Source of the DNA: Extensimonas soli
GTDB taxonomy: Bacteria > Pseudomonadota > Gammaproteobacteria > Burkholderiales > Burkholderiaceae_C
DNA length: 64,000 bases
Reading direction: 5' to 3'
NCBI RefSeq assembly: GCF_029211265.1
Contig: NZ_JARGEL010000006.1
Span: 62,001-126,000 of the forward strand
Shown: piece after piece, positions 13,572 through 52,530 of the stretch
How the letters are laid out: every line of letters starts with the position of its first letter
Numbering within the stretch: the first letter of the stretch is position 1
Notes under the pieces: model-generated
Seen by the model: the letters and a program-made list of their open reading frames with translations, nothing else
What the model was told of the DNA's origin: nothing
Database searches by the model: none
Made by a program: the position numbers and the translations under genes

Positions 13572-14684
13572 ATGCCACGCCCCATCCATGCCACCATCCA
13601 CCCCTGCGCCTTGCGCAACAACCTGGCGCGTGTGCGCCAGGCTGCGCAGGACGCCAGAGTCTGGGCCGTCGTCAAGGCCAATGCGTACGGCCACGGCATC
13701 GAGCGCGTCTATGCAAGCCTGCGCGCTGCCGACGGCTTTGCGCTGCTCGACCTGGCCGAGGCCGAGCGCCTGCGCGCGCTGGGCTGGCGCGGCCCCATTC
13801 TGCTGCTCGAAGGCGTGTTCGAGCCGCGCGACCTCGAGCTGTGCTCGCGTCTGGACTTGTGGCACGTGGTGCACTGCGACGAACAGATCGACATGCTCGC
13901 CGCGCACAAGACGCAGCAGCCGCACCATGTGTGGCTCAAGCTCAATTCGGGCATGAACCGCCTGGGCTTCACGCCGCAGCGCTACCGCAGCGCCTGGGCG
14001 CGGCTGAATGCGCTGCCGCAGGTCGATGAAGTCGGCCACGTGACGCACTTCAGCGACGCCGACGGCGCGCGCGGCATTGCGCACCAGGTCGATGCTTTCC
14101 TCGCGGCCACGCAAGACTTGCCGGGCGAGCGCAGCCTGGCCAACAGCGCCGCAATCCTGCGCCACGCGAGCGCCGCGCGAGTGCGCGCCGACTGGGTGCG
14201 CGCCGGCATCGCCCTGTACGGCAGCGCGCCCGACCATCCTGACGGCAGCGCCGCCCACTGGAGCCTGCAGCCCGCGATGACGCTGGCCACGCGCCTGATG
14301 GGCGTGCAGCGGCTCGCGGCCGGCGACAGCGTGGGCTACGGCTCGCGCTTCGTTGCCCCCGCGCCCATGACCATAGGCGTGGCCGCGTGCGGCTATGCCG
14401 ACGGCTACCCGCGCCACGCCGACACCGGCACGCCCGTGCTCGTCGCAGGCGTGCGCACGCGCCTCGTGGGGCGCGTGAGCATGGACATGCTCGCCGTTGA
14501 TCTGGAGCCCGTGCTGGCTGCGGGCGTGCACGTGGGTTTTGGCAGCGAGGTCACGCTCTGGGGCCACGCGACGCGCGGCGGCGCGATCTTGCCCATAGAC
14601 GAAGTCGCGCACGCCGCGGGCACGGTGGCTTACGAGCTCATGTGCGCGCTCGCGCCGCGCGTGCCGGTGGCGGATTGTTTGTGA
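13572..14684 (+). CDS. alr: Alanine racemase
   Basis: A 370-residue PLP enzyme making D-alanine for peptidoglycan. The PLP lysine sits in [10 protein letters not shown] at residue 35 and the second catalytic base, a tyrosine, in SVGYGSRF near residue 255; the RVSMDML segment follows as expected. ATG 13572 (MPRPIHATI) was preferred to an upstream start at 13530, which adds fourteen residues that do not look like the family. Confidence 0.93.
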
Positions 14685-14950
14685 GGCCGCGCCGCACGCC
14701 CATGCGCGCGCAACGTGGCGGATACAGATACACGTCCCCCCGAAACGATGGCCCTTGCAGCCGCTGAATCGGTACTCCCAGGAACAGGTTCTAGAATCGG
14801 CCCTATGCACCACGCCTACCGCCTGAATTCCTACGGGCTGACGCTTGCACCCTCCAAGCGTCGCCGGTTCGATATGCGGTTGCGCCATTGTGGGCCGCCG
14901 CACGTTGGCTGAACTTCTTTTTCGACGTTCCTGCCGCATGTGGAGTCCTC
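14685..14950. other. Intergenic region upstream of the hydrogenase-like operon
   Basis: 266 bp with no convincing gene. It should contain the promoter of the operon that begins at 14951, but I see no clear sigma-70, sigma-54 or FNR-type site. A GGAACAGGTTC string at 14781-14791 shares the core GAACAGGTTC with the inverted repeat at the cysM start; this may be chance. Confidence 0.4.
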
Positions 14951-15010
14951 ATGAAATCATTTAACCCCCCCATCGAGCCATTGACCTGCGTTTTGCCAGG
15001 GCAATCCTGA
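14951..15010 (+). CDS. Possible 19-residue leader peptide ahead of hyfB
   Basis: A short open frame, ATG 14951 to TGA 15008-15010, with a good GTGGAG ribosome site seven bases upstream. Its stop overlaps the hyfB start as TGATG, so a ribosome finishing it could re-initiate on hyfB. The peptide (MKSFNPPIEPLTCVLPGQS) has no run of one amino acid that would suggest classic attenuation. hyfB itself has no strong ribosome site other than this coupling, which is the main reason for calling it. Chance remains a real possibility at this length. Confidence 0.45.
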   Translation: MKSFNPPIEPLTCVLPGQS

Positions 15011-17016
15011 TGAACCAGCTCATTGCGGCCGCGCTGCTGCTGATGCTGGGCGGCGCATTGTGTCTTTTGCCCGCAAGCAACCGGCTGCGCGCGAGCGCAG
15101 GGCTTGCGTCGCAGGCCTTGGCGACCTTGCTGGTGTGGTCGGCCGTGTTTCCCGTGATGTTCGGTGCACCCGGTTTGACGCTGCAAATGCCATGGAGCTA
15201 TCCCATGGGGGCGCTGCACTTCCATCTGGACGCGCTGGGCGCCTTTTTTCTGAGCTGGTCCCTGCCCATGACGCTGCTGGGCAGCGTGTATGCCGTAGGG
15301 TATCTGCGCAAATACTTCGACAGCCCACGGCATCTGGGGGTGCATTTCGGCCTGCTGAACATGGTTTCGCTGTCGTTCATTCTGGTCTATACCGGCGAGC
15401 ACGCGGTGACGTTTTTGCTGGGATGGGAAATTGCGGCGCTTTCGGCCTGGTTGCTGGTGATCTGGGACTACACCAACCAGAAGGTGCGCTTTGCCGGTTT
15501 CAATTACCTGGTGTCCACCCACGTGGGGCTGATTTTTCTGGTGGCAGCGGTGATGATCCTCTACACCCACACCCAGTCCTGGTATCTGGACGATTTTGGC
15601 GACTGGATGCGGCACAACCCGGGCACCGTGCGCAACACCGTGTTTTTGCTGCTCGTGACCAGCTTCGGGTTGAAGGCGGCATTTTTTCCATTCCACTCCT
15701 GGCTGCCGCGCGCGCATGCGGCGGCGCCCGCGCACGTGTCGGCACTGATGTCCGGCGTCATCCACAAGGCGGGGCTTTATGCGTTGGTGCATTTTCTGGC
15801 CATTTCGGGACAACCGGACGAATGGATGGGCTGGTTTTTGCTTGCCTTCTCGGCCACTTCGGCGGTGGTGGGCGGCCTCTATACCACGGGGCAGCGCGAC
15901 TTGAAGCGTCTGCTGGGCTACTCGTCGACGGAGAACGTGGGCATCGCCGGCATGGGCTTCGGGCTGGGTTGTCTGGGCCTGAGCTGGAGCCAGCCCGCCT
16001 TGGTGGTGCTGGGTTTTGGCGGCGGTTTGCTGCATGTGCTCAACCATGCGTTTTTCAAGTGCCAGCTGTTTTATGCCGCCGGCTGCGTCTATCAGGCCAA
16101 ACACGTGGTCGATATCGAGCGCCTGGGCGGGCTGTTCGCACGCATGCCCGTGACGGCACTGTGTTTCCTCATTGGCGGCGTGGCCATTTCTGCGCTGCCA
16201 CCGTTCAATGGCTTTGCGAGCGAATTTCTGCTCTATTCCGGCCTGCTGGGTCAGGGGAGCCCGTCTCTCGGGGCCCAGTTGGTGCTGGTGCTGGCGGCGG
16301 CGGCGCTGGCCTTCGTGGGGGCGCTTTCGGTACTGAGCATGACCCGTGCCTATGGCGTGGTTTTTTTGGGCAGTGAGCGCGACACCAGCTTGGCCCCAGG
16401 CCAGGAAGCCAGTGCCTGGATGTTGGCTCCCATGGGCATCCATGCGGTGGGCAGCGTGCTGCTGGGCATGGCGCCGGGGCTCGGTTTTGCCCTGGTGGCG
16501 GCGCCTGTCGCGCAGTTCCTGCAAACTGCACCAGGCCCTGCGGCCGTGGCGGCACTGCACGCGGCGGCGCAGACCCTGAACCACGTCGGCATTTTTGGTG
16601 CCGTCTTGGCGACTGTGGTGCTGGCGGTGTTCTGGCTGCGCGAGCGGCTGCTGCCTGCCCGGCCCCTGCAAAGTGCCACCTGGGCGTGCGGCTATGGCGT
16701 GCCGCAAGCGCGCATGCAATACACCGGCGCGGGTTTTTCGGTGGACTTCACCGCGCACTTCAAAAACATCGTGCTCATGCTCAAACGCCAGAAAGCGCCC
16801 AGGGCTTATTTCCCGGACGATAGCTACGTGGTTGTCGATTGCGTCGATGCCGTCGAAAGACGCCTGTACGCGGTGATCGCCCAGGGGGATGCATCTGCGA
16901 GCGAACTGTCCGAAAAAATGCACGAGGACGATCCGCGTCTGGCTTTTGCCGTGGGGCTGGCCGCCATCGTGGTGATTGCCGCGCTGGTGGTGCTGGCCAG
17001 GGGAGCGCTGCCATGA
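15010..17016 (+). CDS. hyfB: Hydrogenase-4/complex I-like proton-translocating subunit HyfB (NuoL/Mrp family)
   Basis: A 668-residue membrane protein with about fifteen hydrophobic segments. The antiporter-like core residues are in place: glutamate in LLGWEIAALSAW near 140, lysine in SFGLKAAFFPFHSW near 222, and the His-Lys pair in GVIHKAG near 252. These form the proton half-channels in NuoL-type subunits. The C-terminus carries an extra soluble stretch and a last membrane helix. It overlaps hyfC by four bases (ATGA). In this operon it would couple electron transfer to proton or sodium movement. Confidence 0.9.
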   Translation: MNQLIAAALLLMLGGALCLLPASNRLRASAGLASQALATLLVWSAVFPVMFGAPGLTLQMPWSYPMGALHFHLDALGAFFLSWSLPMTLLGSVYAVGYLRKYFDSPRHLGVHFGLLNMVSLSFILVYTGEHAVTFLLGWEIAALSAWLLVIWDYTNQKVRFAGFNYLVSTHVGLIFLVAAVMILYTHTQSWYLDDFGDWMRHNPGTVRNTVFLLLVTSFGLKAAFFPFHSWLPRAHAAAPAHVSALMSGVIHKAGLYALVHFLAISGQPDEWMGWFLLAFSATSAVVGGLYTTGQRDLKRLLGYSSTENVGIAGMGFGLGCLGLSWSQPALVVLGFGGGLLHVLNHAFFKCQLFYAAGCVYQAKHVVDIERLGGLFARMPVTALCFLIGGVAISALPPFNGFASEFLLYSGLLGQGSPSLGAQLVLVLAAAALAFVGALSVLSMTRAYGVVFLGSERDTSLAPGQEASAWMLAPMGIHAVGSVLLGMAPGLGFALVAAPVAQFLQTAPGPAAVAALHAAAQTLNHVGIFGAVLATVVLAVFWLRERLLPARPLQSATWACGYGVPQARMQYTGAGFSVDFTAHFKNIVLMLKRQKAPRAYFPDDSYVVVDCVDAVERRLYAVIAQGDASASELSEKMHEDDPRLAFAVGLAAIVVIAALVVLARGALP

Positions 17017-17957
17017 CGCCCCTGGCTTTTGCTGCGCTGGCGCTGGTGCACGGGGTGCTGGTGCTGCTCATGCCCATCGTGCTTACAGGGGTGATCAACC
17101 GCACCAAATCGTGGTGGGCAGGACGCAAGGGGCCGCGGCTGCTGCAATTGGCGTCGGACTTGCGGCGGCTGCTGTACAAGCGCCCGGTGGTCAGCGTGGT
17201 GGCCAGTCCGCTGTTTCGCAGCGGGGCCTGGGTCGTGCTGGTGTGCAACCTGCTTGCCGCAGCCATGTCGCCCATGCTGGGCCCCTTTGCTCCGCTGCAG
17301 TTCGCCTACGACTTCATCGCGGTGGCTTACACGCTGGGGCTGGCACGCCTGGCGCTCATGGTTTCGGCCATGGACGTGGGCAGTTCCTTTGAAGGCATGG
17401 GGGCGGCACGCGAGGCGGGGTTTTCGGCGTTTGCCGAACCGGCCCTGTTTTTGCTTTTCGGCACGCTGCTTGCCGCCACGGGGCTGACCAGTTTTGCCGG
17501 CCTGATCGGGCATTTGCACCGCACGCCGTATTACCTGCTGGTGGTGGCGCCGCTGGCCTTCGCACTGCTCGTCCTGTTGCAGACCGAGGCCGCCCGGGTG
17601 CCCGTGGATGATCCGCTCACGCATCTGGAGCTGACCATGATCCATGAGGTGATGATCCTCGATCACAGCGGACCTGAACTGGCGGCCATGCAGTACGCCG
17701 CAGGCCTGAAGATGACGCTGTATGCCGGTTTGCTGGCCGCGTTGCTCAACCCGCTGGATGTGTACGCCGAGCCCTTCGCGGCAACGCTGGCGTCCATAGG
17801 CCTGATGCTGCTGGTGGCTTGTGTGGTGGGTTGTATTGAAGCGCTCACCGCCCGGCTGGCCATGCGCTGGGTGCCGCGTTATGTGCTGCTGGCCGCGGCC
17901 GCCGCGTTGCTGGGCATGCTGTTGGTGTGGCGGGCCGCTGGTGGTGCAGGGAGGTGA
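17013..17957 (+). CDS. hyfC: Hydrogenase-4/complex I-like subunit HyfC (NuoH family)
   Basis: A 314-residue membrane protein of the NuoH/HycD family. The amphipathic GRKGPRLLQLASDLRRLLYK, equivalent to the GRRGPxxLQ motif near the quinone-site loops, lies near residues 34-53, and the acidic PVDDPLTHLELTMIHEVM loop near 195-215 is also characteristic. NuoH-type subunits hold the membrane domain to the electron-transfer arm and line the quinone or equivalent site. Start ATG 17013 overlaps the hyfB stop. Confidence 0.9.
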   Translation: MTPLAFAALALVHGVLVLLMPIVLTGVINRTKSWWAGRKGPRLLQLASDLRRLLYKRPVVSVVASPLFRSGAWVVLVCNLLAAAMSPMLGPFAPLQFAYDFIAVAYTLGLARLALMVSAMDVGSSFEGMGAAREAGFSAFAEPALFLLFGTLLAATGLTSFAGLIGHLHRTPYYLLVVAPLAFALLVLLQTEAARVPVDDPLTHLELTMIHEVMILDHSGPELAAMQYAAGLKMTLYAGLLAALLNPLDVYAEPFAATLASIGLMLLVACVVGCIEALTARLAMRWVPRYVLLAAAAALLGMLLVWRAAGGAGR

Positions 17958-17959
17958 GC

Positions 17960-18607
17960 ATGGACGAGAGACTGCCGTTGATTCTTTTCTTGCTGGCCAC
18001 CGTGGTTCCGCTGTTTCTCGGCAAGACGGGCGCTGCCCCCGCTTGGCTGAGCCTGCAGGGACTGGCCATGGGCTGGATCAGCCTCACGCAGCACCATGTG
18101 CTGAGCGCCCATGCCTTGGCGGGCGGCCTGGAGGTGCTGCTGGTGCGCGCCTTGCTGGTGCCGACCTTGCTGCGCCGTGCCCTGGCCGGATCGGCCGCCG
18201 CACACGATGACCTGATGCCCTCGAATCTGTTGATCTGGGGCGTGGCCCTGGCCTTGATCATTCTGGCGTTCAAGTTTGGCGACGGCGCGCGTGCCGACGT
18301 GCGTGCCCTGACCTTGGGCGTGGTGGCGGCCACCGGCACGATGGCGTTTCTGCTGCTGTCCACCAATCGCGAGCCGGCCGCCCAATTGGTGGCGCTGCTG
18401 TTCATGGAAAACGCGCTGGCGTTGTTCGAGTCCCTGATGTCCGAGCCTTGGTCCGTGCCTGTGCATGTGGGCGTCAGCGGCTTGTATGTGGGCACCGTGG
18501 CGGTCGGAGTGTGGCTGGTGCGCGCGCCGGCTGCGCCCCTGCCGGCGCCCGACCCCGCGGCTGCGGCTTGTGCGGTTTCGGATGACGCAGTGGCGAGGGA
18601 GCCATGA
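17960..18607 (+). CDS. hyfE: Hydrogenase-4 subunit HyfE-like (NuoK-like) membrane protein
   Basis: 215 residues with six hydrophobic segments. The NuoK-like part includes GGLEVLLVRALLVPTLLRR and a glutamate in LFMENALALFES, matching the charged residues in HyfE. Start ATG 17960 follows a strong GGGAGGTGA ribosome site that overlaps the hyfC stop. Its end overlaps hyfF by four bases. Residues 198-215 form a Pro/Ala-rich tail. Confidence 0.85.
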   Translation: MDERLPLILFLLATVVPLFLGKTGAAPAWLSLQGLAMGWISLTQHHVLSAHALAGGLEVLLVRALLVPTLLRRALAGSAAAHDDLMPSNLLIWGVALALIILAFKFGDGARADVRALTLGVVAATGTMAFLLLSTNREPAAQLVALLFMENALALFESLMSEPWSVPVHVGVSGLYVGTVAVGVWLVRAPAAPLPAPDPAAAACAVSDDAVAREP

Positions 18608-20058
18608 ATACGGCCATGGACAGCGCACAACTTCATGCTCCTATGCCGCAGGCGGCGCCATCCGCCGGCAGTGCGCGCGGCAGCACCTGGGCGCCACTGG
18701 CGCTGGTCGGCATCGCGCTGCTGCTTTGGCTGGCTTCCATGGCGGTGTTTCTTGTGTTCCCGCTGGAGACATTGCCGCGGTATTTTGCGCGGCGTTATCT
18801 GGTGCTCGACGCCACCTCGCTGCTGTTCATCGTGGTGGTGAACACGGTGTTTTTGGGCATCAGCGTGTACCTTTTTTCGCGCCGGCGCACATCGGCTCGG
18901 CTGGCGCGCGACTTTCTGCCAAGAGCCGCGCTGTCGCTGCTGTTCATGCTCGTGACCAACCTGGCGGTACTGTCCAGCCACCTGATCGTGTTGTGGACTT
19001 TGCTCGAGGTCAGCACCCTGTGCGCTACGCCGCTGGTGGCGCGGGGGGATGCGGCTTTGCCCCGGACCGTGGCCTGGCGCTATTTGCTGTATTCGGCCAT
19101 GAGCCTGTCGCTCACCTTCATGGGCTTCATGTGCCTGACGCAGTCGGCCTCTTTGCGCGGCGTCGATATCGACTTCGCCATCGATGCGCTGGGCGGGGCA
19201 CTCAGCCCCACTGGCGATGGCTGGCAGCATCTGGGGCTGGCGTTCATGGTTTTCGGCCTGGGCGGCAAACTGGGTCTGGCGCCGCTGTACGGCTGGCTGC
19301 CGGAAACCTACGAGACCGCACCCACCAGCACCAGTGCCTTGCTGGCGGCGGTGCAGTTCAACATCAGCATGGTGGCGGTGTTTCGCATTCTGCAGGTGTG
19401 CCGCGGTGTGGACCTCAGCTTCGTGGCGCAGGAGTTGCTGGTCATGGGCTATTTGTCGCTGGCGGTGGCGGCCGTCAAGGTGATGGCGGTGCGCAATTAC
19501 AAACGCCTCATTGCCTACGCATGCATCAGCTCGTCCGGCGTGATCGCGCTCGGGCTGTCGGTAGGGCAAACGGCCGCCTACGGTGTGGTGCTGTACGTGG
19601 TGAGCAATGCCTTCGTCAAGGCCTTGCTGTTCCTGACCGCGGGGCGGCTGCGCGCCACCTACGGCACCAATGACGTTGCGGCACTGAGCGGCGTCATCCG
19701 CATCCTGCCGTTTTCCGGGTCCCTGTTTACCGTGGGGATTTTTGCCTTGCTGGGCTTTCCACCTTTTGCGGGTTTTCTGGCGGAAATGCTGACGCTCTCG
19801 GGCATCGTCCAGGCGGGCAACCTGATGGCGTTCACGCTGATGTGTGTGATGCTGACGGTGATCTTCGTGGCCACGGGACGCACCGTCTTTCCCATGCTCT
19901 GGGGCGCGCCCGAGCGCGAGGTGCCGACAGCGCACGAACCCAGGCTGACCACCATGCCCAAGCTGGGCTTCGTGGCCATCCTGATCATGCTCGGCACCTA
20001 CACGCCCGAGCCGTTCACCCGCCTGTTGCGGGCCGTGGCGCAGTCGATCGGGGGGTAG
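18604..20058 (+). CDS. hyfF: Hydrogenase-4 proton-translocating subunit HyfF-like (NuoN/NuoM family)
   Basis: 484 residues, about fourteen hydrophobic segments. Conserved charged residues are the glutamate in VLWTLLEVSTLC near 135, the lysine in LGGKLGLAPLYGWLP near 222, and KVMAVRNYKRLIAYA near 295-310. The GWLPETYETAPTSTSALLAA segment is the usual antiporter-subunit signature. Its first 30 residues are polar and poorly conserved, so the true start could be a little further in. It lies 4 bp before the large-subunit gene. Confidence 0.9.
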   Translation: MNTAMDSAQLHAPMPQAAPSAGSARGSTWAPLALVGIALLLWLASMAVFLVFPLETLPRYFARRYLVLDATSLLFIVVVNTVFLGISVYLFSRRRTSARLARDFLPRAALSLLFMLVTNLAVLSSHLIVLWTLLEVSTLCATPLVARGDAALPRTVAWRYLLYSAMSLSLTFMGFMCLTQSASLRGVDIDFAIDALGGALSPTGDGWQHLGLAFMVFGLGGKLGLAPLYGWLPETYETAPTSTSALLAAVQFNISMVAVFRILQVCRGVDLSFVAQELLVMGYLSLAVAAVKVMAVRNYKRLIAYACISSSGVIALGLSVGQTAAYGVVLYVVSNAFVKALLFLTAGRLRATYGTNDVAALSGVIRILPFSGSLFTVGIFALLGFPPFAGFLAEMLTLSGIVQAGNLMAFTLMCVMLTVIFVATGRTVFPMLWGAPEREVPTAHEPRLTTMPKLGFVAILIMLGTYTPEPFTRLLRAVAQSIGG

Positions 20059-20062
20059 TTGC

Positions 20063-21580
20063 ATGCCTGCACACGCATTTTTATCGCCCTGGACGCTGAA
20101 GACGCTGCGGGACATACCGCTGCAGGCGCTGCCTGATTTTGCGCAGACCTGTACGCAGCGGCTGGCGGCGGGAGCGCGGTTGGTGACTTTGTTCGGACGG
20201 CCCGCAGGCGCCGGCGAACCTGCTGGCTGCATTCTCACCGCCGTCTTTCAGCCTGCAGGGGGGCCCTTGGAGGTACTGCGTGGCACGGCGCAGGGCGGCG
20301 CGCGCTACCCCAGCCTGACTTGCGCGCATCCTGCGGCGCAGATGTACGAGCGCGAACTGTGGGAGCAGACCGGTCTGCTGCCCGAAGGGCACCCCTGGCT
20401 CAAGCCGGTGCGTTTCGAGGGCACGCGCCAGCAGCACATGGCAGACTACCCGTTTTTCCAGGTGCGCGGGCACAGTGTGCACGAGGTGGGGGTGGGCCCA
20501 ATTCATGCGGGCGTGATCGAACCCGGCCATTTCCGCTTCATGTGCCTCGGTGAAACGGTGTACCACCTGGAAGTCCAGCTGGGCTACCAGCACCGCGGCG
20601 TCGAAGCGCTGCTGCTGCAGCGCCCGGCCTGGACGCTGGCGCCTTTGCTGGAGTCCGTCTGCGGGGATTCCGCCGTTGCCTATGCCTGGGGCCATTGCGC
20701 AGCCATCGAGGCTTTGAGTGGCTGCAGCGTGGGCCGATCCGCCGAGCTGTCGCGCGCGGTGGCGCTGGAGCTCGAGCGCGTTGCGATACATGTCGCCACC
20801 CTCGGGGGCCTGGCCACGGACATTGCTTTTCTGCAAGGCGGCAGCACGTATGGCCGCTTGCGCACGGCCATCATCAACGCCACCCAGCGCGTCTGCGGCA
20901 ACCGCTTCGGCCGCGGCTGGATCCGGCCGGGACGCTCCAGCGTACTGAGCGACGCACTGCGCCAGGACTTGGTGCAGACCTTGCGCGCTTTCGCCGTCGA
21001 CTTTGCGGAAATCAACGAACGCATGCGCACGGCGCACAGCGTCACAGCGCGCTTGCGCGGTGTGGGGACGGTCAGCACGCAGGCGGCACGCGACCTGGGC
21101 CTGCTCGGTGTGGTGGCGCGCGCCAGCGGCGTGGCGCTGGATGTGCGCACCGAACTGCCGGGCCCGGTATATGGTGCCGCGCCTTTGCCCCTGGTGACCG
21201 AGCCGCAGGGTGATTGCTGGGCGCGCGTGCTTCTGCGCATGCGTGAAGTGGAGCAGTCCGTCGCCTGGCTGCTGCAGCTGCTGGAGGGGGGCGCGTTGGA
21301 TGGTGTATCACCCCAGAGCGTCAGGGAGGCTTCTTCCTTTGCAGCGCCGCCGGAGCTGCAGCCCGAGGCCTTGTGCGTTTCGCTGACGGAAGGCACGCGC
21401 GGGCCGGTGGTGCAGGTGCTGGAGACCGGCGCTGGCGGAGAGCTGCGCCACTACAAGGTGCAAGACCCCTCGCTGGCCAATTGGTACGGGCTCGCACTGG
21501 CCGTGCGTGACAACGCGATTTCCGACTTTCCCCTGTGCAACAAGAGCTTCGACCTCTCGTATTGCGGCAACGATCTATAA
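20063..21580 (+). CDS. hyfG: Hydrogenase large-subunit-like protein HyfG (NuoCD-like fusion) lacking [NiFe] ligands
   Basis: 505 residues. An N-terminal NuoC-like domain (YERELWEQTGLLPEGHPWLK) is fused to a NuoD/HycE-like domain (GPIHAGVIEPGHFRF, YQHRGVEALL). In true group-4 hydrogenases two C-x-x-C motifs hold nickel-iron. Here the first reads C200-G-D-S203, so its second cysteine is serine. The C-terminal motif reads D497-L-S-Y-C-G-N-D instead of D-P-C-x-x-C; in an ungapped alignment both cysteines are lost (Ser499, Gly502), with a cysteine shifted to 501. An active [NiFe] site is therefore unlikely; the complex fits the Ehr type. Confidence 0.85.
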   Translation: MPAHAFLSPWTLKTLRDIPLQALPDFAQTCTQRLAAGARLVTLFGRPAGAGEPAGCILTAVFQPAGGPLEVLRGTAQGGARYPSLTCAHPAAQMYERELWEQTGLLPEGHPWLKPVRFEGTRQQHMADYPFFQVRGHSVHEVGVGPIHAGVIEPGHFRFMCLGETVYHLEVQLGYQHRGVEALLLQRPAWTLAPLLESVCGDSAVAYAWGHCAAIEALSGCSVGRSAELSRAVALELERVAIHVATLGGLATDIAFLQGGSTYGRLRTAIINATQRVCGNRFGRGWIRPGRSSVLSDALRQDLVQTLRAFAVDFAEINERMRTAHSVTARLRGVGTVSTQAARDLGLLGVVARASGVALDVRTELPGPVYGAAPLPLVTEPQGDCWARVLLRMREVEQSVAWLLQLLEGGALDGVSPQSVREASSFAAPPELQPEALCVSLTEGTRGPVVQVLETGAGGELRHYKVQDPSLANWYGLALAVRDNAISDFPLCNKSFDLSYCGNDL

Positions 21581-21586
21581 AGTCCC

Positions 21587-22333
21587 ATGTTCAAATCTCT
21601 CGCCGTCCGAAGATCCCAGGGCACGCAATACATTGCCGATTTGCGCGCGGCGCAGGCCGCAGGCTTTCGCGGCAAGCCCGTCATCGGCGAAGCCGCATGT
21701 GCTGCCGGCTGCTCGGCTTGCGTGTCGGTGTGTCCGAGCCAGGCGCTGGCGCTGGAGCCGGTGCAGGTCGATCTGGGGCGCTGCGTGCTCTGTGGCGACT
21801 GCGCCGCCGTCTGCCCCAGCGGCAAGATCGGTTTCAGCAGCGATGTCAAACTGGCCGCCACGCAGCGCTCCGGCTTGGTGCTGAGCGCCGCGCGCCCCGA
21901 CGTGGATCCGGTGCAGGTGTCCGCGGCATTGCATAGTCGCTTCGGCCGCTCGCTCAAGCTGCGTTCGGTCTCGGCAGGTGGCTGCAACGGCTGCGAGATG
22001 GAAATCAACGCGCTGGGCAACGTCAACTTCGATCTGGGCCGCTACGGCATCGACTTTGTGGCCTCCCCCCGGCACGCGGATGGCCTGGTGCTGTCGGGGC
22101 CGCTGACGCGCAACATGGCGCAGGCGCTGCAATTGTGCTGGGACGCCATGCCAGAGCCCAAGCTGCTCATCGCTGTCGGGGCCTGCGCGATCTCGGGCGG
22201 TGTATTCGCGCAAAGCGCGGCCCTCGATCGGCAGTTTCTGGAGCGCATCCAGCCCACGCTGTATGTGCCCGGCTGCCCGCCGCACCCGCTCACTTTCATC
22301 TGCGGCATCCTGGATTTGCTCGGCATTCCTTGA
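21587..22333 (+). CDS. hyfI: Fused ferredoxin/NuoB-like small subunit (HyfH-HyfI)
   Basis: 248 residues joining two modules that are separate proteins in E. coli hydrogenase-4. Residues 38-76 hold two 4Fe-4S motifs; the second is regular (C66-x2-C69-x2-C72-x3-C76-P) but the first has a three-residue first gap (C38-x3-C42-x2-C45-x3-C49-P). The NuoB/HycG-like part keeps the proximal-cluster cysteines: GGC133NGC136E, GAC200AISGG and PGC230PPHP. An electron path up to the N2-like cluster is thus present even though the large subunit lacks nickel-iron ligands. It is the last gene of the operon; tgt converges on it. Confidence 0.88.
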   Translation: MFKSLAVRRSQGTQYIADLRAAQAAGFRGKPVIGEAACAAGCSACVSVCPSQALALEPVQVDLGRCVLCGDCAAVCPSGKIGFSSDVKLAATQRSGLVLSAARPDVDPVQVSAALHSRFGRSLKLRSVSAGGCNGCEMEINALGNVNFDLGRYGIDFVASPRHADGLVLSGPLTRNMAQALQLCWDAMPEPKLLIAVGACAISGGVFAQSAALDRQFLERIQPTLYVPGCPPHPLTFICGILDLLGIP

Positions 22334-22353
22334 GAGCGTGCCCGAAATAGGCG

Positions 22354-24048
<1,695 letters not shown>

Positions 24049-32322: not shown

Positions 32323-33150
32323 ATGACCCAAAGTCTCCAAACACCCCCGCCCGCCCCATCGCTGTGGCGCCCGCCCAGCCTGTCGCTGCGCTGGTGGCCG
32401 GTGTTTTTGCGCAATCTGCTCGTCTGGCGCAAGCTGGCCGTGCCCAGCCTGCTGGGCAACATCGCCGAGCCGCTGATGTGGCTCGTCGCCTTTGGCTACG
32501 GCATGGGGGCACTGGTCGGGCAGATCGACGTGGGCGGCGGACGGCAGGTGCCCTACATCCTGTTTCTGGCGAGCGGCTCGATCTGCATGAGCGCGATGAA
32601 CGCCGCGAGCTTCGAGGCGCTGTATTCGGCCTTTTCGCGCATGCACGTGCAAAAAACCTGGGAGGGCATCCTGAACGCGCCCCTGCGCCTGGACGACGTG
32701 GTGCTGGCCGAGATGCTCTGGGCCGCGTTCAAGTCGATCTTCACGGTCACGGCGATCATGGGCGTGATGCTCGCGCTGGGCATCAGCCACAGCCCCAAGC
32801 TGCTCGTGGCCTGGCTGGTGCTGCTGGCCGTGGGGCTGATGTTTTCGAGCCTGGCGCTGATCTTCAATGCGCTCGCCAAGAGCTACGATTTTTTCACCTA
32901 CTACTTCACGCTGGTGCTCACGCCCATGATGTTCCTCTCGGGCGTGTTCTTCCCGCGCGAACAGCTCCCGCCCCTGGTGCGCACCCTCTCGGCGGCGCTG
33001 CCGCTGACGAACGCGGTCGAACTCGTGCGCCCCCTGTTCATGGATCAATGGCCCGCCCAACCCCTGCGCCCCGCGCTGGTGCTCGCGCTCACCACCCTCG
33101 GCGCCTTCTGGCTCGCGCTCGCGCTCACGCGGCGGCGTTTTCGGGGGTGA
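32323..33150 (+). CDS. ABC-2 transporter permease, NodJ family
   Basis: 275 residues with six hydrophobic segments and the ABC-2/NodJ motifs LLGNIAEPLMWLVAFGYGMG and LTPMMFLSGVFFPREQLPP. NodJ-type permeases need a NodI-type ATPase; none is adjacent because purT lies divergently upstream. Transport substrate unknown (NodIJ exports lipo-oligosaccharides in rhizobia, but non-symbiotic homologues are common). Its last 237 bp recur at 34271-34507, after an inserted segment. Confidence 0.85.
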   Translation: MTQSLQTPPPAPSLWRPPSLSLRWWPVFLRNLLVWRKLAVPSLLGNIAEPLMWLVAFGYGMGALVGQIDVGGGRQVPYILFLASGSICMSAMNAASFEALYSAFSRMHVQKTWEGILNAPLRLDDVVLAEMLWAAFKSIFTVTAIMGVMLALGISHSPKLLVAWLVLLAVGLMFSSLALIFNALAKSYDFFTYYFTLVLTPMMFLSGVFFPREQLPPLVRTLSAALPLTNAVELVRPLFMDQWPAQPLRPALVLALTTLGAFWLALALTRRRFRG

Positions 33151-33209
33151 CGCTCTGGTAAAAGGAGCTGCTTGCGCGCGTTGGTTCTGCGTGGAAGGGG
33201 GTTTTTGAG
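33151..33209 (+). repeat. Short interspersed palindromic repeat, copy 5
   Basis: Contains AAAAGGAGCTGCTTGCGCGC directly after the stop codon of the NodJ-type permease gene, same orientation; the right half is diverged. A weaker relative may follow the duplicated gene tail at 34508-34565. Confidence 0.6.
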
Positions 33210-33283
33210 TAGGGGCGTCGTCGGGCGCAACACGCCCTCTGTTCTATCGCCAGCGCCCGAAAATTGGAGTCTGACCCCAATTT

Positions 33284-33463
33284 TTACATGTGAGGAAGCA
33301 TCATTAATTTCATATTGCTGAAGCCTCCGACCTCGGCGACGACTTCTTGCTTTAACGCATAAAGCAAGCCTTGCAAGATGGGGCGAATGACTGCAACGAG
33401 CGCAGAGACCTCGTCTCCAACCGGGTTCAGCTGACTTTCAGTTCGAATCTCGATTTGGCTCAA
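33284..33463 (-). CDS. Possible 59-residue cassette ORF, probably truncated
   Basis: A frame from TTG (33463) to TAA (33284-33286) with GGAG six bases before the TTG, starting about 27 bp past the attC boundary at 33490/33491, where the gene of a following integron cassette should begin. The peptide (LSQIEIRTESQLNPV..., ending MKLMMLPHM) looks like a real amphipathic helical protein. Base composition is more AT-rich than the chromosome. It ends at a repeated TCTGACCCCAATT motif rather than at an attC, so the cassette is probably broken. Start codon and reality are uncertain. Confidence 0.4.
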   Translation of the reverse strand: MSQIEIRTESQLNPVGDEVSALVAVIRPILQGLLYALKQEVVAEVGGFSNMKLMMLPHM

Positions 33464-33484
33464 GAGGTGCTCCGGTTAGTAGAC

Positions 33485-33556
33485 GCATAACGCCGAAGCT
33501 CAGCCGCGTCCTTGCTGCGAAGCGGCAAGGACGTCGGTTGGAGCGCCTTGTTGGGC
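33485..33556 (-). other. Integron attC recombination site
   Basis: A 72-bp imperfect palindrome. On the minus strand it begins GCCCAAC (R'') and ends GTTATGC (R'), with the inner pair CGACGTCC / GGACGCGGC and a stem TTGCCGCTTCGCAGCAA in the centre. GCCCAAC fits the RYYYAAC consensus and GTTATGC differs from GTTRRRY at one base, as many attC sites do. It lies 7 bp after the stop codon of the minus-strand gene, where a cassette attC belongs. Confidence 0.85.
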
Positions 33557-34099
33557 ATTGCGCTCAGTAGACGACCTCGCGCTTCGTCACCAAGCAGAGA
33601 TTGGATGCCTTCCCACCGGGCGTCAAATAGATGTCAACTGTTCCGTTGTCATTTTGCAGAATCAAGGTCTTTTCGTTGAGGTTACCCCGGTATTTCCAAC
33701 TTTTAAAGATTTCCTCTCTGACCAAAGCACACTGTGTTTCCCAGAGCATCGTCTCCGTATAAACAGCATCGCAGCCCGTTCCATTCGGCGCAAACTGCAT
33801 GCTCACTTGGCTATCTCCGTCGGAGTAACCGCGAGAGACAAAAAACGACAGCAGCCGCGAATCTGTTTCTTTGTTGTTCCAAGTGGTATCGGAACCGTGC
33901 CCAGCTTCTTTCAAGACGAAGTTGGACATTTCACGAACCTTAGCCAAGCACTTCTTTACTCCCAACTCCTGCGCTTTCTTGTAGGGCAGCGTGTCTGCGG
34001 CGTTGACCGCCATGGATTGGAACGAGATAGCAGCCGCAAATGTGCAAGCCAACACCACCTTCATCGGGACCTCCTTTTGGTCATGAATAAAATGCCCAA
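33491..34099 (-). mobile_element. Integron gene cassette (609 bp)
   Basis: Bounded by the recombination points in GCATAA/C (33490/33491) and GCCCAA/C (34099/34100). The cassette's leading core, GTTGGGC on the minus strand at 34094-34100, is the exact complement of the R'' core GCCCAAC of its own attC, as expected for a cassette whose circular form has one complete attC. It carries one gene with its attC at the 3' end. No integrase gene is in the window, so it is a lone cassette or the edge of an attC cluster without integrase. Confidence 0.8.
33564..34064 (-). CDS. Cassette-encoded secreted protein of unknown function
   Basis: 166 residues, not recognised. Residues 1-22 (MKVVLACTFAAAISFQSM, cleavage after AVNA) are a signal peptide. 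The mature protein has four cysteines, compatible with two disulfides, and mixed alpha/beta pattern (YKKAQELGVKKCLAKVRE, KTLILQNDNGTVDIYL). A perfect AGGAGG ribosome site stands before the ATG at 34064; an overlapping plus-strand frame lacks this. Composition is clearly less GC-rich than the neighbours, indicating acquisition. Its place in an integron cassette suggests an accessory periplasmic or extracellular role. Confidence 0.85.
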   Translation of the reverse strand: MKVVLACTFAAAISFQSMAVNAADTLPYKKAQELGVKKCLAKVREMSNFVLKEAGHGSDTTWNNKETDSRLLSFFVSRGYSDGDSQVSMQFAPNGTGCDAVYTETMLWETQCALVREEIFKSWKYRGNLNEKTLILQNDNGTVDIYLTPGGKASNLCLVTKREVVY

Positions 34100-34104
34100 C
34101 ATTC

Positions 34105-34130
34105 AGTATACGCCGCAAGCGGCGTATACT
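34105..34130. repeat. Perfect 26-bp palindrome beside the cassette boundary
   Basis: AGTATACGCCGC, then AA, then its exact reverse complement. It lies 5 bp outside the cassette boundary at 34094-34100; a partial third copy, CGGCGTATAAC, follows near 34144. It may be the remnant of the adjacent cassette's attC, or a terminator or protein-binding site. Confidence 0.6.
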
Positions 34131-34270
34131 CATTCAAAAATTCGGCGTATAACACAATTTTTCCACAGAGAGGCCCACTTGTAGCACACCTCTGCGGCCA
34201 GTATATGCCAGCAAACACCACGCCACAGCCCAAGCTGCGCAGCGATAACTGGACTCTGACCCCAATTCCA

Positions 34271-34507
34271 GTGCTCACGCCCATGATGTTCCTCTCGGGC
34301 GTGTTCTTCCCGCGCGAACAGCTCCCGCCCCTGGTGCGCACCCTCTCGGCGGCGCTGCCGCTGACGAACGCGGTCGAACTCGTGCGCCCCCTGTTCATGG
34401 ACCAATGGCCCGCCCAACCCCTGCGCCCCGCGCTGGTGCTCGCGCTCACCACCCTCGGCGCCTTCTGGCTCGCGCTCGCGCTCACGCGGCGGCGTTTTCG
34501 GGGGTGA
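34271..34507 (+). pseudogene. Duplicated 3' end of the NodJ-type permease gene
   Basis: 237 bp identical to 32914-33150 except for one base (GAT versus GAC in the FMDQW codons). It encodes the last 78 residues of the permease without its N-terminus or start. The left junction is immediately after a TCTGACCCCAATTCCA string. It marks a recent duplication that brackets the cassette-bearing insert; the intact copy is at 32323-33150. Confidence 0.95.
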
Positions 34508-34795: not shown

Positions 34796-34906
34796 GAGCC
34801 TGGACTGCCATCCAAAAGCGCAGGCAACGTCAGCCCGCAAATCGGCAAGCCAGCGTGCAGTCTGTAAAATGCAACCGTTTTGGTTCCATCATGTTTGGAG
34901 AGGGCC

Positions 34907-35149
34907 ATGCCTACAACGCTGACATTGAAAAACATTCCGGACGACGTGTACGAGCAGCTGAAAGTCGCGGCAGAAATGCACCGCCGCAGCCTGAACAGTG
35001 AAGCCATTGTGTGCCTTGAGACTGTGCTTACGCCGACCAAGATAAACCCTGCTGAACGACTTGCCCGTGCGCGCCAACTGCGAGCGGGACTCAGCGCGGA
35101 GTTTTGCGCCCGCGACATTGACGCCTTGAAGAAGCAAGGGCGTCCATGA
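34907..35149 (+). CDS. Arc/FitA-type ribbon-helix-helix antitoxin
   Basis: 80 residues. The N-terminal TTLTLKNIPDDVYEQLKVAA and HRRSLNSEAIVCLE match the ribbon-helix-helix DNA-binding fold of FitA-like antitoxins; the C-terminal RARQLRAG segment would wrap the toxin. ATG 34907 has GGAGAGG upstream; the longer in-frame start at 34880 is not needed. The stop overlaps the toxin start (ATGA). It probably represses its own operon. Confidence 0.88.
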   Translation: MPTTLTLKNIPDDVYEQLKVAAEMHRRSLNSEAIVCLETVLTPTKINPAERLARARQLRAGLSAEFCARDIDALKKQGRP

Positions 35150-35541
35150 GGGTCGTGGATTCAAACGTGTTGGCGTATCTGTATCTGCCAGGAGAATATA
35201 CGGCGGCAGCAGAGGCGCTGATGGAGCACGACCCTGATTGGGCCGCGCCGGTGCTTTGGCGCAGCGAATTTCGCAACATTCTGGCCGGATATCTGAGGCG
35301 CGGGAAGCTGACATTCGAGCAGGCGCATGCGCTCCAAAGCGAGGCCGAGGATTTGCTCTCGGGCGCCGAATACGAGGTCGACTCGCGTAGCGTCCTCGAA
35401 CTGGTGCGCGACAGTGAATGCTCCGCATACGATTGCGAGTTCGTTGCGCTCGCGAAGACGCTCGGAACGAAGCTCGTGACCATGGATGGCAAAGTGCTAC
35501 GGTCGTTCCCAGACATCGCGGTCGCGCTCTCTGCGGACTAA
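35146..35541 (+). CDS. PIN-domain toxin, VapC/FitB family
   Basis: 131 residues. The PIN acidic residues can be placed: D5 in VVDSNVLAYLYL, E41 in LWRSEFRNIL, D95 in SAYDCEFVALAK, and a last aspartate in LVTMDGKVL. Such proteins are Mg-dependent ribonucleases, often cutting tRNA or mRNA. Overlaps the antitoxin by four bases. The pair stands between a palindromic element and a copy of the short repeat, in an accessory patch. Confidence 0.9.
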   Translation: MRVVDSNVLAYLYLPGEYTAAAEALMEHDPDWAAPVLWRSEFRNILAGYLRRGKLTFEQAHALQSEAEDLLSGAEYEVDSRSVLELVRDSECSAYDCEFVALAKTLGTKLVTMDGKVLRSFPDIAVALSAD

Positions 35542-52175: not shown

Positions 52176-52425
52176 GGAGGTTCCGGGGAAAGGGGCTGTG
52201 AGAGCAAATGGCCGCGATTATGCTGCGCAAAGGCCGCAGGCTTGGCCTGGCCTGGGAGGTGTAGGGCGCTGGTGGCGCTGCGGGCCTGCAGTTGGCAAGG
52301 GCATCCGGTGCAGCAGGCGGGGCACACGAATTTCGATGCGAGAATGGCCGCCCGCTGGTTATGGCGCATAAAACGGCTTTGCGAACGACGAATTGTTACC
52401 CCTGAAACCTGCTATTTCGTTGAAG

Positions 52426-52497
52426 ATGCCCGGATGCCCGGATGCCCGGATGCCCGGATGCCCGGATGCCCGGATGCCCGGATGCCCGGATGCCCGG
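52426..52497 (+). repeat. Nine tandem copies of an 8-bp unit (ATGCCCGG)
   Basis: Perfect repeat of ATGCCCGG, nine copies over 72 bp, followed by ATT. Eight is not a multiple of three, so adding or losing a unit shifts the frame. Each unit contains an ATG, in rotating frames; those at 52426, 52450 and 52474 are in frame with the diguanylate cyclase gene that follows. It has no spacers and is not a CRISPR array. Confidence 0.97.
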
Positions 52498-52530
52498 ATT
52501 TTTCCTTGCTTGCCCAGTGCCCCCTCTGTG

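Follow-up and report, generated by a model that had tools for sequence, protein, structure and literature searches.

What does a membrane complex that is built like a hydrogenase do when the ligands of its nickel have been replaced? This question is raised by an operon of Extensimonas soli (Comamonadaceae) located at positions 15010-22333 of the window, i.e. the 64,000-nucleotide stretch of contig NZ_JARGEL010000006.1 (C47) analyzed here. Its six intact open reading frames (ORFs), hyfB-hyfC-hyfE-hyfF-hyfG-hyfHI, lie on the plus strand and overlap or almost touch each other. A sequence-only reading had assigned them to the energy-converting hydrogenase-related (Ehr) complexes, Cys-less relatives of group 4 hydrogenases whose function is unknown (PMC4378227, PMC10284858, PMC7304191). 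This kind of system is thus not new, and membership of the operon is supported by the missing ligands, the subunit set and a phylogenetic tree rather than by direct comparison with the named Ehr proteins of Geobacter (EhrL, GSU0739-45). For the subunits, the nickel and cluster ligands, the residues of the proton network and the pumps and the stand-alone organization, the sequences themselves are the evidence. Tentatively, we favor the view that the operon encodes a six-subunit, complex-I-like, ion-translocating Ehr complex, which may well be fed by ferredoxin and reduce quinone, with no hydrogen chemistry.

The former nickel-iron site

A scan of 84,980 species genomes revealed at least 499 relatives, the best 80 of which are considered here. 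The subfamily of the window is referred to as A-type, a subfamily commoner in Burkholderiales as B-type. The nickel-iron ligands C241, C244, C531 and C534 of Escherichia coli HycE align to C200, S203, S499 and G502 of HyfG. For these sites, the sequence-only reading had reported the motifs C200-G-D-S203 and D-L-S-Y-C-G-N-D. Both motifs were confirmed, but neither of their cysteines can be counted as a ligand. C501 falls outside the ligand positions, and C200 was rejected as a surviving ligand since this position is mostly Ala or Val in A-type relatives (Cys in 12 of 80 sequences). Position 203 is Thr or Ser in 79 of the 80. In these 80 A-type and in 46 B-type sequences, the nickel ligands are swapped for conserved residues. 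The replacement motifs x-G-D-[ST] and NKSF[ND]LSYxGxD are kept in 80 relatives from many phyla, and no variation among 56 sequences occurs at G201, D202, D488, F489, P490, N493, L498, S499 and D504. The same signature at 80 independent loci excludes a reading error or chance at both cysteine motifs and speaks against decay as well.

Decay would be expected if the operon were the remnant of a hydrogenase operon, for which its absence from one of the three Extensimonas species could be adduced. However, all six frames are intact, the ratios of nonsynonymous to synonymous substitutions (dN/dS) relative to Extensimonas perlucida range from 0 to 0.29, and the replacement motif is conserved across phyla, so that a decaying remnant is hardly conceivable. 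That the complex is still a hydrogenase, albeit with unusual ligands, might be argued from its overall fold, which is closest to that of HycE. This protein is the best match of HyfG in the PDB (1.8e-36, alignment spanning 420 residues), and the AlphaFold2 models of HyfG (pLDDT 88.6) and HyfHI (pLDDT 93.3) have formate hydrogenlyase chains as their best structural matches, with 7z0s_E being the top fold match of HyfG (TM-score 0.85). On the other hand, all four ligand positions are replaced in the family, and a search of the whole host genome (3.44 Mb, 99.99% complete) for PF00374 [NiFe] hydrogenases and, as the maturation marker, HypD gave no match to either. A remaining hydrogenase activity is therefore extremely improbable. 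The statement that hyp and formate dehydrogenase genes are missing nearby can be extended to the whole genome for hypD, but holds only locally for formate dehydrogenase, which is encoded on another contig.

In a maximum-likelihood tree with HycE/HyfG, Mbh and NuoD as references, the A-type, the B-type and further Cys-less sequences formed one clade apart from the references (support 100/99). Together with the lack of hydrogenase and HypD genes, this bears out the assignment to the Ehr type. As in the Ehr complexes described, group-4-like large and small subunits and NuoH-like and antiporter-like subunits are encoded by one operon, and the NiFe cysteines are missing (PMC6349859, PMC4378227, PMC10284858, PMC7894505). 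What separates the operon of the window from them is a betaproteobacterial genus with named species as host, the restriction to six genes, the fusion of HyfH and HyfI and the lack of a partner enzyme nearby. With hydrogenase-4 and formate hydrogenlyase of E. coli (Hyf, Hyc), the operon has in common the subunit order, the fold (7z0s_E) and the spacing of the proximal cluster. By contrast, it is devoid of the NiFe ligands, the HyfA/HycB linker and HyfD, and neither hyp nor fdhF genes lie nearby.

Proton and electron routes

The residues E153, H243, R353, E395 and R446 of HyfG correspond to E193, H284, R395, E437 and R478 of HycE, which make up the proton-donor loop, the canopy and the proton path to the active site (PMC9474812), and are kept in nearly all of the 126 A- and B-type sequences. 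MbsL of the archaeal membrane-bound sulfane-sulfur reductase (MBS) is without the well-defined proton pathway (PMC7684303). The retention of a network that is absent from MbsL points to a proton-consuming acceptor.

MBS deserves attention because this characterized relative retains only two of the four NiFe cysteines (PMC7684303) and resembles the window complex in its NiFe-derived pocket without complete nickel ligands and its ferredoxin-type input domain. The window complex might accordingly be a sulfane-sulfur reductase whose proximal cluster itself reduces polysulfide. Yet the MBS cluster is held by three cysteines within a motif that is three residues shorter (PMC7684303), and its reaction needs this shortened motif with one iron devoid of Cys. 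In HyfHI, the proximal motif (C133-x2-C136, C200, C230) is as long as those of MbhJ and HycG, contains neither the tandem Cys of NuoB nor the shortening of MBS, and all four cysteines are kept, in agreement with the sequence-only reading. As HyfG also keeps the proton pathway missing in MbsL, polysulfide reduction of this kind is highly unlikely. Overall, the loss of the ligands, the lack of HypD and PF00374, the preserved proton route and the four-Cys cluster argue against both H2 chemistry and MBS-type sulfur reduction.

The ferredoxin part of HyfHI contains two 4Fe-4S sets, C38/42/45/76 and C49/66/69/72. Four lineages are without exactly C38, C42, C45 and C76, which we take to be the ligands of one cluster under the classical dicluster scheme, and another lineage is without the whole ferredoxin domain. 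Conversely, a HyfHI protein of the Opitutaceae (L134, 10468-11268; a single metagenome assembly) lacks exactly all four proximal cysteines while both ferredoxin clusters are kept. The loss of ligands in whole sets supports the cluster assignment and suggests that it is the distal (ferredoxin) entry that can be dispensed with.

The membrane arm

Alignment to the E. coli Nuo, Hyf and Hyc proteins upheld the claim that the conserved glutamate and lysines of HyfB, HyfC and HyfF are kept. In HyfB, the pump residues E140, K222, K253, K350 and E405 are intact. HyfF possesses E135, K222 and K339 as well as a Glu at the position of NuoM E407, whereas the equivalent of K265 is Asn, as in E. coli HyfF. 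The acidic residues E142, D199, E206, D217, E192 and E276 are present in HyfC. For HyfB E140/K222/K253/K350/E405, HyfF E135/K222/K339 and HyfC E142/D199/E206/D217, conservation at the corresponding NuoL/M/N/H positions was seen in 61-74 family members. HyfB carries a Lys at the position of Leu208 in HycC, which has lost it. HyfE gave no match in Pfam or NCBIfam and is only weakly similar to E. coli HyfE (hhalign E 0.044), but its position is conserved in relatives; a GTG at 17927 is an alternative upstream start of hyfE.

Complex I (Nuo) shares with the operon the E-channel and pump residues, the homology of NuoD, NuoB, NuoH and NuoL and the absence of NiFe. It differs in that no NADH-oxidizing module is encoded within the operon, the tandem Cys of cluster N2 is replaced by CxxC spacing, and the Tyr and His of the quinone site are missing.

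Possible function of the complex

The ferredoxin donor, the quinone acceptor, the direction and the ion are inferred, and would fit together as follows. Reduced ferredoxin most likely delivers electrons to the HyfH part of HyfHI with its two 4Fe-4S clusters, from which they would pass via the four-cysteine proximal cluster to a non-metal acceptor, most likely a quinone. The acceptor site may be the pocket formed by HyfG, HyfHI and HyfC, which would have held nickel-iron in the ancestor. Protons would be brought to it by Glu153 on the beta1-beta2 loop and by the His243/Arg353/Glu395/Arg446 network, and the acidic channel of HyfC would pass the energy to HyfB and HyfF, which may move protons (or sodium). 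Since the pocket would receive electrons and protons but offers no ligands for a metal, its simplest substrate is an organic molecule that can be reduced, most likely a quinone. The donor is likely to be diffusible because the gene order is kept while no oxidoreductase recurs among the proteins encoded around the 80 loci. The host encodes one 2-oxoacid:acceptor oxidoreductase and two proteins of the indolepyruvate:ferredoxin oxidoreductase family, so that ferredoxin chemistry is available to it. That neither donor nor acceptor is established, as stated in the sequence-only reading, is consistent with the literature, in which Ehr function is described as unknown or uninvestigated (PMC4378227, PMC10284858, PMC7894505).

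Several points weigh against a ferredoxin-fed quinone reductase. The Tyr and His of the complex I quinone site are absent from HyfG, in which Gly201 sits at the Tyr position and Ile152/Glu153 at the His position. Most relatives have Asn in place of the canopy Asp of HycE, which the window retains. The structure predictions are of single chains and provide no quinone-site model of the whole complex. Furthermore, one or both ferredoxin clusters are lost in L092, L095, L103, L115 and L097, and the B-type is without the domain; the ferredoxin entry route is thus not essential in the wider family.

The same complex might run in reverse, with the proton gradient driving quinol oxidation to supply reduced ferredoxin for biosynthesis. 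Complex-I-type machines are reversible, and the host possesses an ordinary nuo locus with a single NuoD on a separate contig (C5), which serves forward respiration, so that the need for another quinone reductase working forward is not evident. The ferredoxin-linked enzymes of the host would fit this direction too. However, the 2-oxoacid:ferredoxin oxidoreductases could supply reduced ferredoxin themselves, and the sequence gives no sign of direction. We consider reverse operation unlikely. Somewhat less likely still is a formate-driven pump with a formate dehydrogenase docked on the complex (FDH-Ehr). Such an arrangement was suggested for Riflemargulisbacteria and Saganbacteria (PMC6349859), and Ehr subunits of Geobacter were more abundant on formate (PMC7894505). 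At the 80 loci, though, neither a formate dehydrogenase nor a HycB-like linker recurs beside the operon. Three of the four molybdopterin enzymes of the host were examined and proved to be an FdhA that includes a NuoG-like region, a NarG and a NasA/Fdh-like protein, while the fourth adjoins nuoD; the formate dehydrogenase alpha subunit, encoded on a different contig, is of the NuoG-like, NAD-linked type.

Beyond the favored ferredoxin:quinone scheme, it is conceivable, if rather doubtful, that the vacated pocket, marked by the invariant motifs Gly-Asp-[Ser/Thr] and Asn-Lys-Ser-Phe-x-Leu-Ser-Tyr, is a substrate site in its own right that resembles neither that of complex I nor those of MBS and hydrogenases. 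The family would then be a separate class of ferredoxin-linked ion pump, spreading in the form of a stand-alone cassette, which may pair with a second Ehr complex devoid of the ferredoxin domain and, in other phyla, be tied to a regulator of the phosphotransferase type with helix-turn-helix (HTH) and EIIA domains.

Distribution and neighboring genes

In the sister species without the cassette (G513), the alignments of the alr and tgt flanks end only 58 bp apart. E. perlucida, the closest named relative (HyfG 91%), has the same alr-operon-tgt arrangement as the window. Between E. perlucida and the window, the synonymous divergence (dS) amounts to 0.01 for hyfHI and 0.05 for tgt (window 21587-23526) compared to 0.16-0.35 for hyfB to hyfG, which hints at recent recombination in this segment.

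The best 80 relatives belong to Betaproteobacteria, Bacteroidota, Ignavibacteria, Verrucomicrobia, Lentisphaerae, Spirochaetes, Acidobacteria, Elusimicrobia, Myxococcota, Gastranaerophilales and others, overlapping the list in PMC6349859. Wherever the contig allows, the order B-C-E-F-G-HI is held across phyla, and HyfHI is fused in nearly all cases. The betaproteobacterial A-type has a patchy distribution (3 of the 399 genomes of the order; full-length fused HyfHI in one of 398 genomes of the phylum), is found on a 553-kb Variovorax plasmid and is nested in the tree among sequences from other phyla. These three observations would be explained most simply by horizontal spread. Within Burkholderiales, 111 of 399 genomes contained a match, most of them carrying the B-type, whose HyfG is 33-41% identical and has the same G-D-S motif and whose HyfI is without the ferredoxin part. 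A B-type operon lies within approximately 9 kb of 8 of the 26 betaproteobacterial A-type loci. Adjoining pairs of different Ehr operons were observed in L065, L066, L069, L070, L077, L078, L082 and L085, and also in L119 and L127; in the paired betaproteobacterial loci, one operon encodes a ferredoxin domain and the other does not. A typical betaproteobacterial Ehr operon on a contig titled Bifidobacterium breve (L068) probably stems from a mis-binned or mislabelled assembly.

In Betaproteobacteria, neighboring genes were rejected as functional clues, as they are mixed apart from metG in four loci. A ribbon-helix-helix gene (RHH_9) precedes several B-type and some A-type operons there. Outside this group, a single neighbor is strongly linked: at 28 of 37 testable non-betaproteobacterial loci, a gene with HTH_17 and PTS_EIIA_2 domains touches hyfB directly upstream on the same strand (among L088-L139, e.g. 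L090 3187-3873). The encoded protein retains an IPH motif at the position that bears the phospho-His in EIIA proteins of that type.

Upstream of hyfB in the window, a small ORF was detected (Table 1), whose product is MHHAYRLNSYGLTLAPSKRRRFDMRLRHCGPPHVG. ORFs with the core SKRRxFDMRLxHxxPPH immediately precede A-type hyfB at six additional named loci and in two further genomes. Within the core of 17 codons, the number of variable columns is 2, 4 and 12 for the first, second and third codon position, respectively, the pattern expected of a translated peptide. Further Comamonadaceae matches with E above 1e-5 and no peptide core were excluded from this count. An Rfam search upstream of hyfB yielded no credible RNA family (best E 0.16, far below gathering).

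Table 1. Positions in the window of the cassette, its genes and selected sites
Feature	Positions	Strand	Description and evidence
Cassette (ends approximate)	14672-22350		About 7.7 kb between alr and tgt, missing in sister species G513; blastn of window vs L149
Candidate small ORF, unannotated	14805-14912	+	35 amino acids, precedes hyfB; conserved within one subgroup of Comamonadaceae
hyfB	15010-17016	+	Antiporter-like subunit; NCBIfam hydrogenase 4 subunit B (6e-133), PF00361; residue alignment
hyfC	17013-17957	+	NuoH-like, E-channel acidic residues; PF00146 (1e-18); conservation in 68 family members
hyfE	17960-18607	+	Small membrane subunit; name based on position and on a weak resemblance to E. 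coli HyfE
hyfF	18604-20058	+	Second antiporter-like subunit; NCBIfam hydrogenase 4 subunit F (5e-57); E135/K222/K339
hyfG	20063-21580	+	Large subunit, 30-kDa and 49-kDa parts, NiFe ligands replaced; PF00346, PF00329
C200-G201-D202-S203 codons	20660-20671	+	Former CxxC site; G201 and D202 in 56/56 sequences
D497 to L505 codons (DLSYCGNDL)	21551-21577	+	Former DPCxxC site; S499 in 80/80, G502 in 78/80
hyfHI	21587-22333	+	Ferredoxin domain (two 4Fe-4S) fused to small subunit; Fer4 families, PF01058 (1.5e-27)

Other features of the window

An ABC-2 permease gene followed by approximately 1 kb with a minus-strand ORF and by an incomplete second copy of the permease 3' end (32323-34504) looks like an insertion with duplication. 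The pair of a FitA-like ribbon-helix-helix protein and a PIN domain protein encoded at 34880-35538 is likely a toxin-antitoxin module. At 52425-52499, a perfect 8-bp tandem repeat (GATGCCCG, 9.4 copies) opens an ORF encoding 7TMR-DISM, GGDEF and EAL domains, possibly making its start phase-variable.

Significance

New aspects of the Ehr family emerging from this analysis are the set-wise loss of cluster ligands, the pairing with a second Ehr operon, the upstream HTH-EIIA gene in other phyla and the conserved small ORF preceding hyfB. The comparison restricts the possible chemistry in that H2 conversion and MBS-type sulfur reduction are disfavored while the parts for proton delivery, electron delivery and pumping are kept. 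With one partner-free cassette of 7.7 kb and a sister species that is naturally free of it, the question of what Ehr complexes do becomes testable. If the acceptor is a quinone, the complex would stand between hydrogenase and complex I as a minimal ion pump of the ferredoxin:quinone type.

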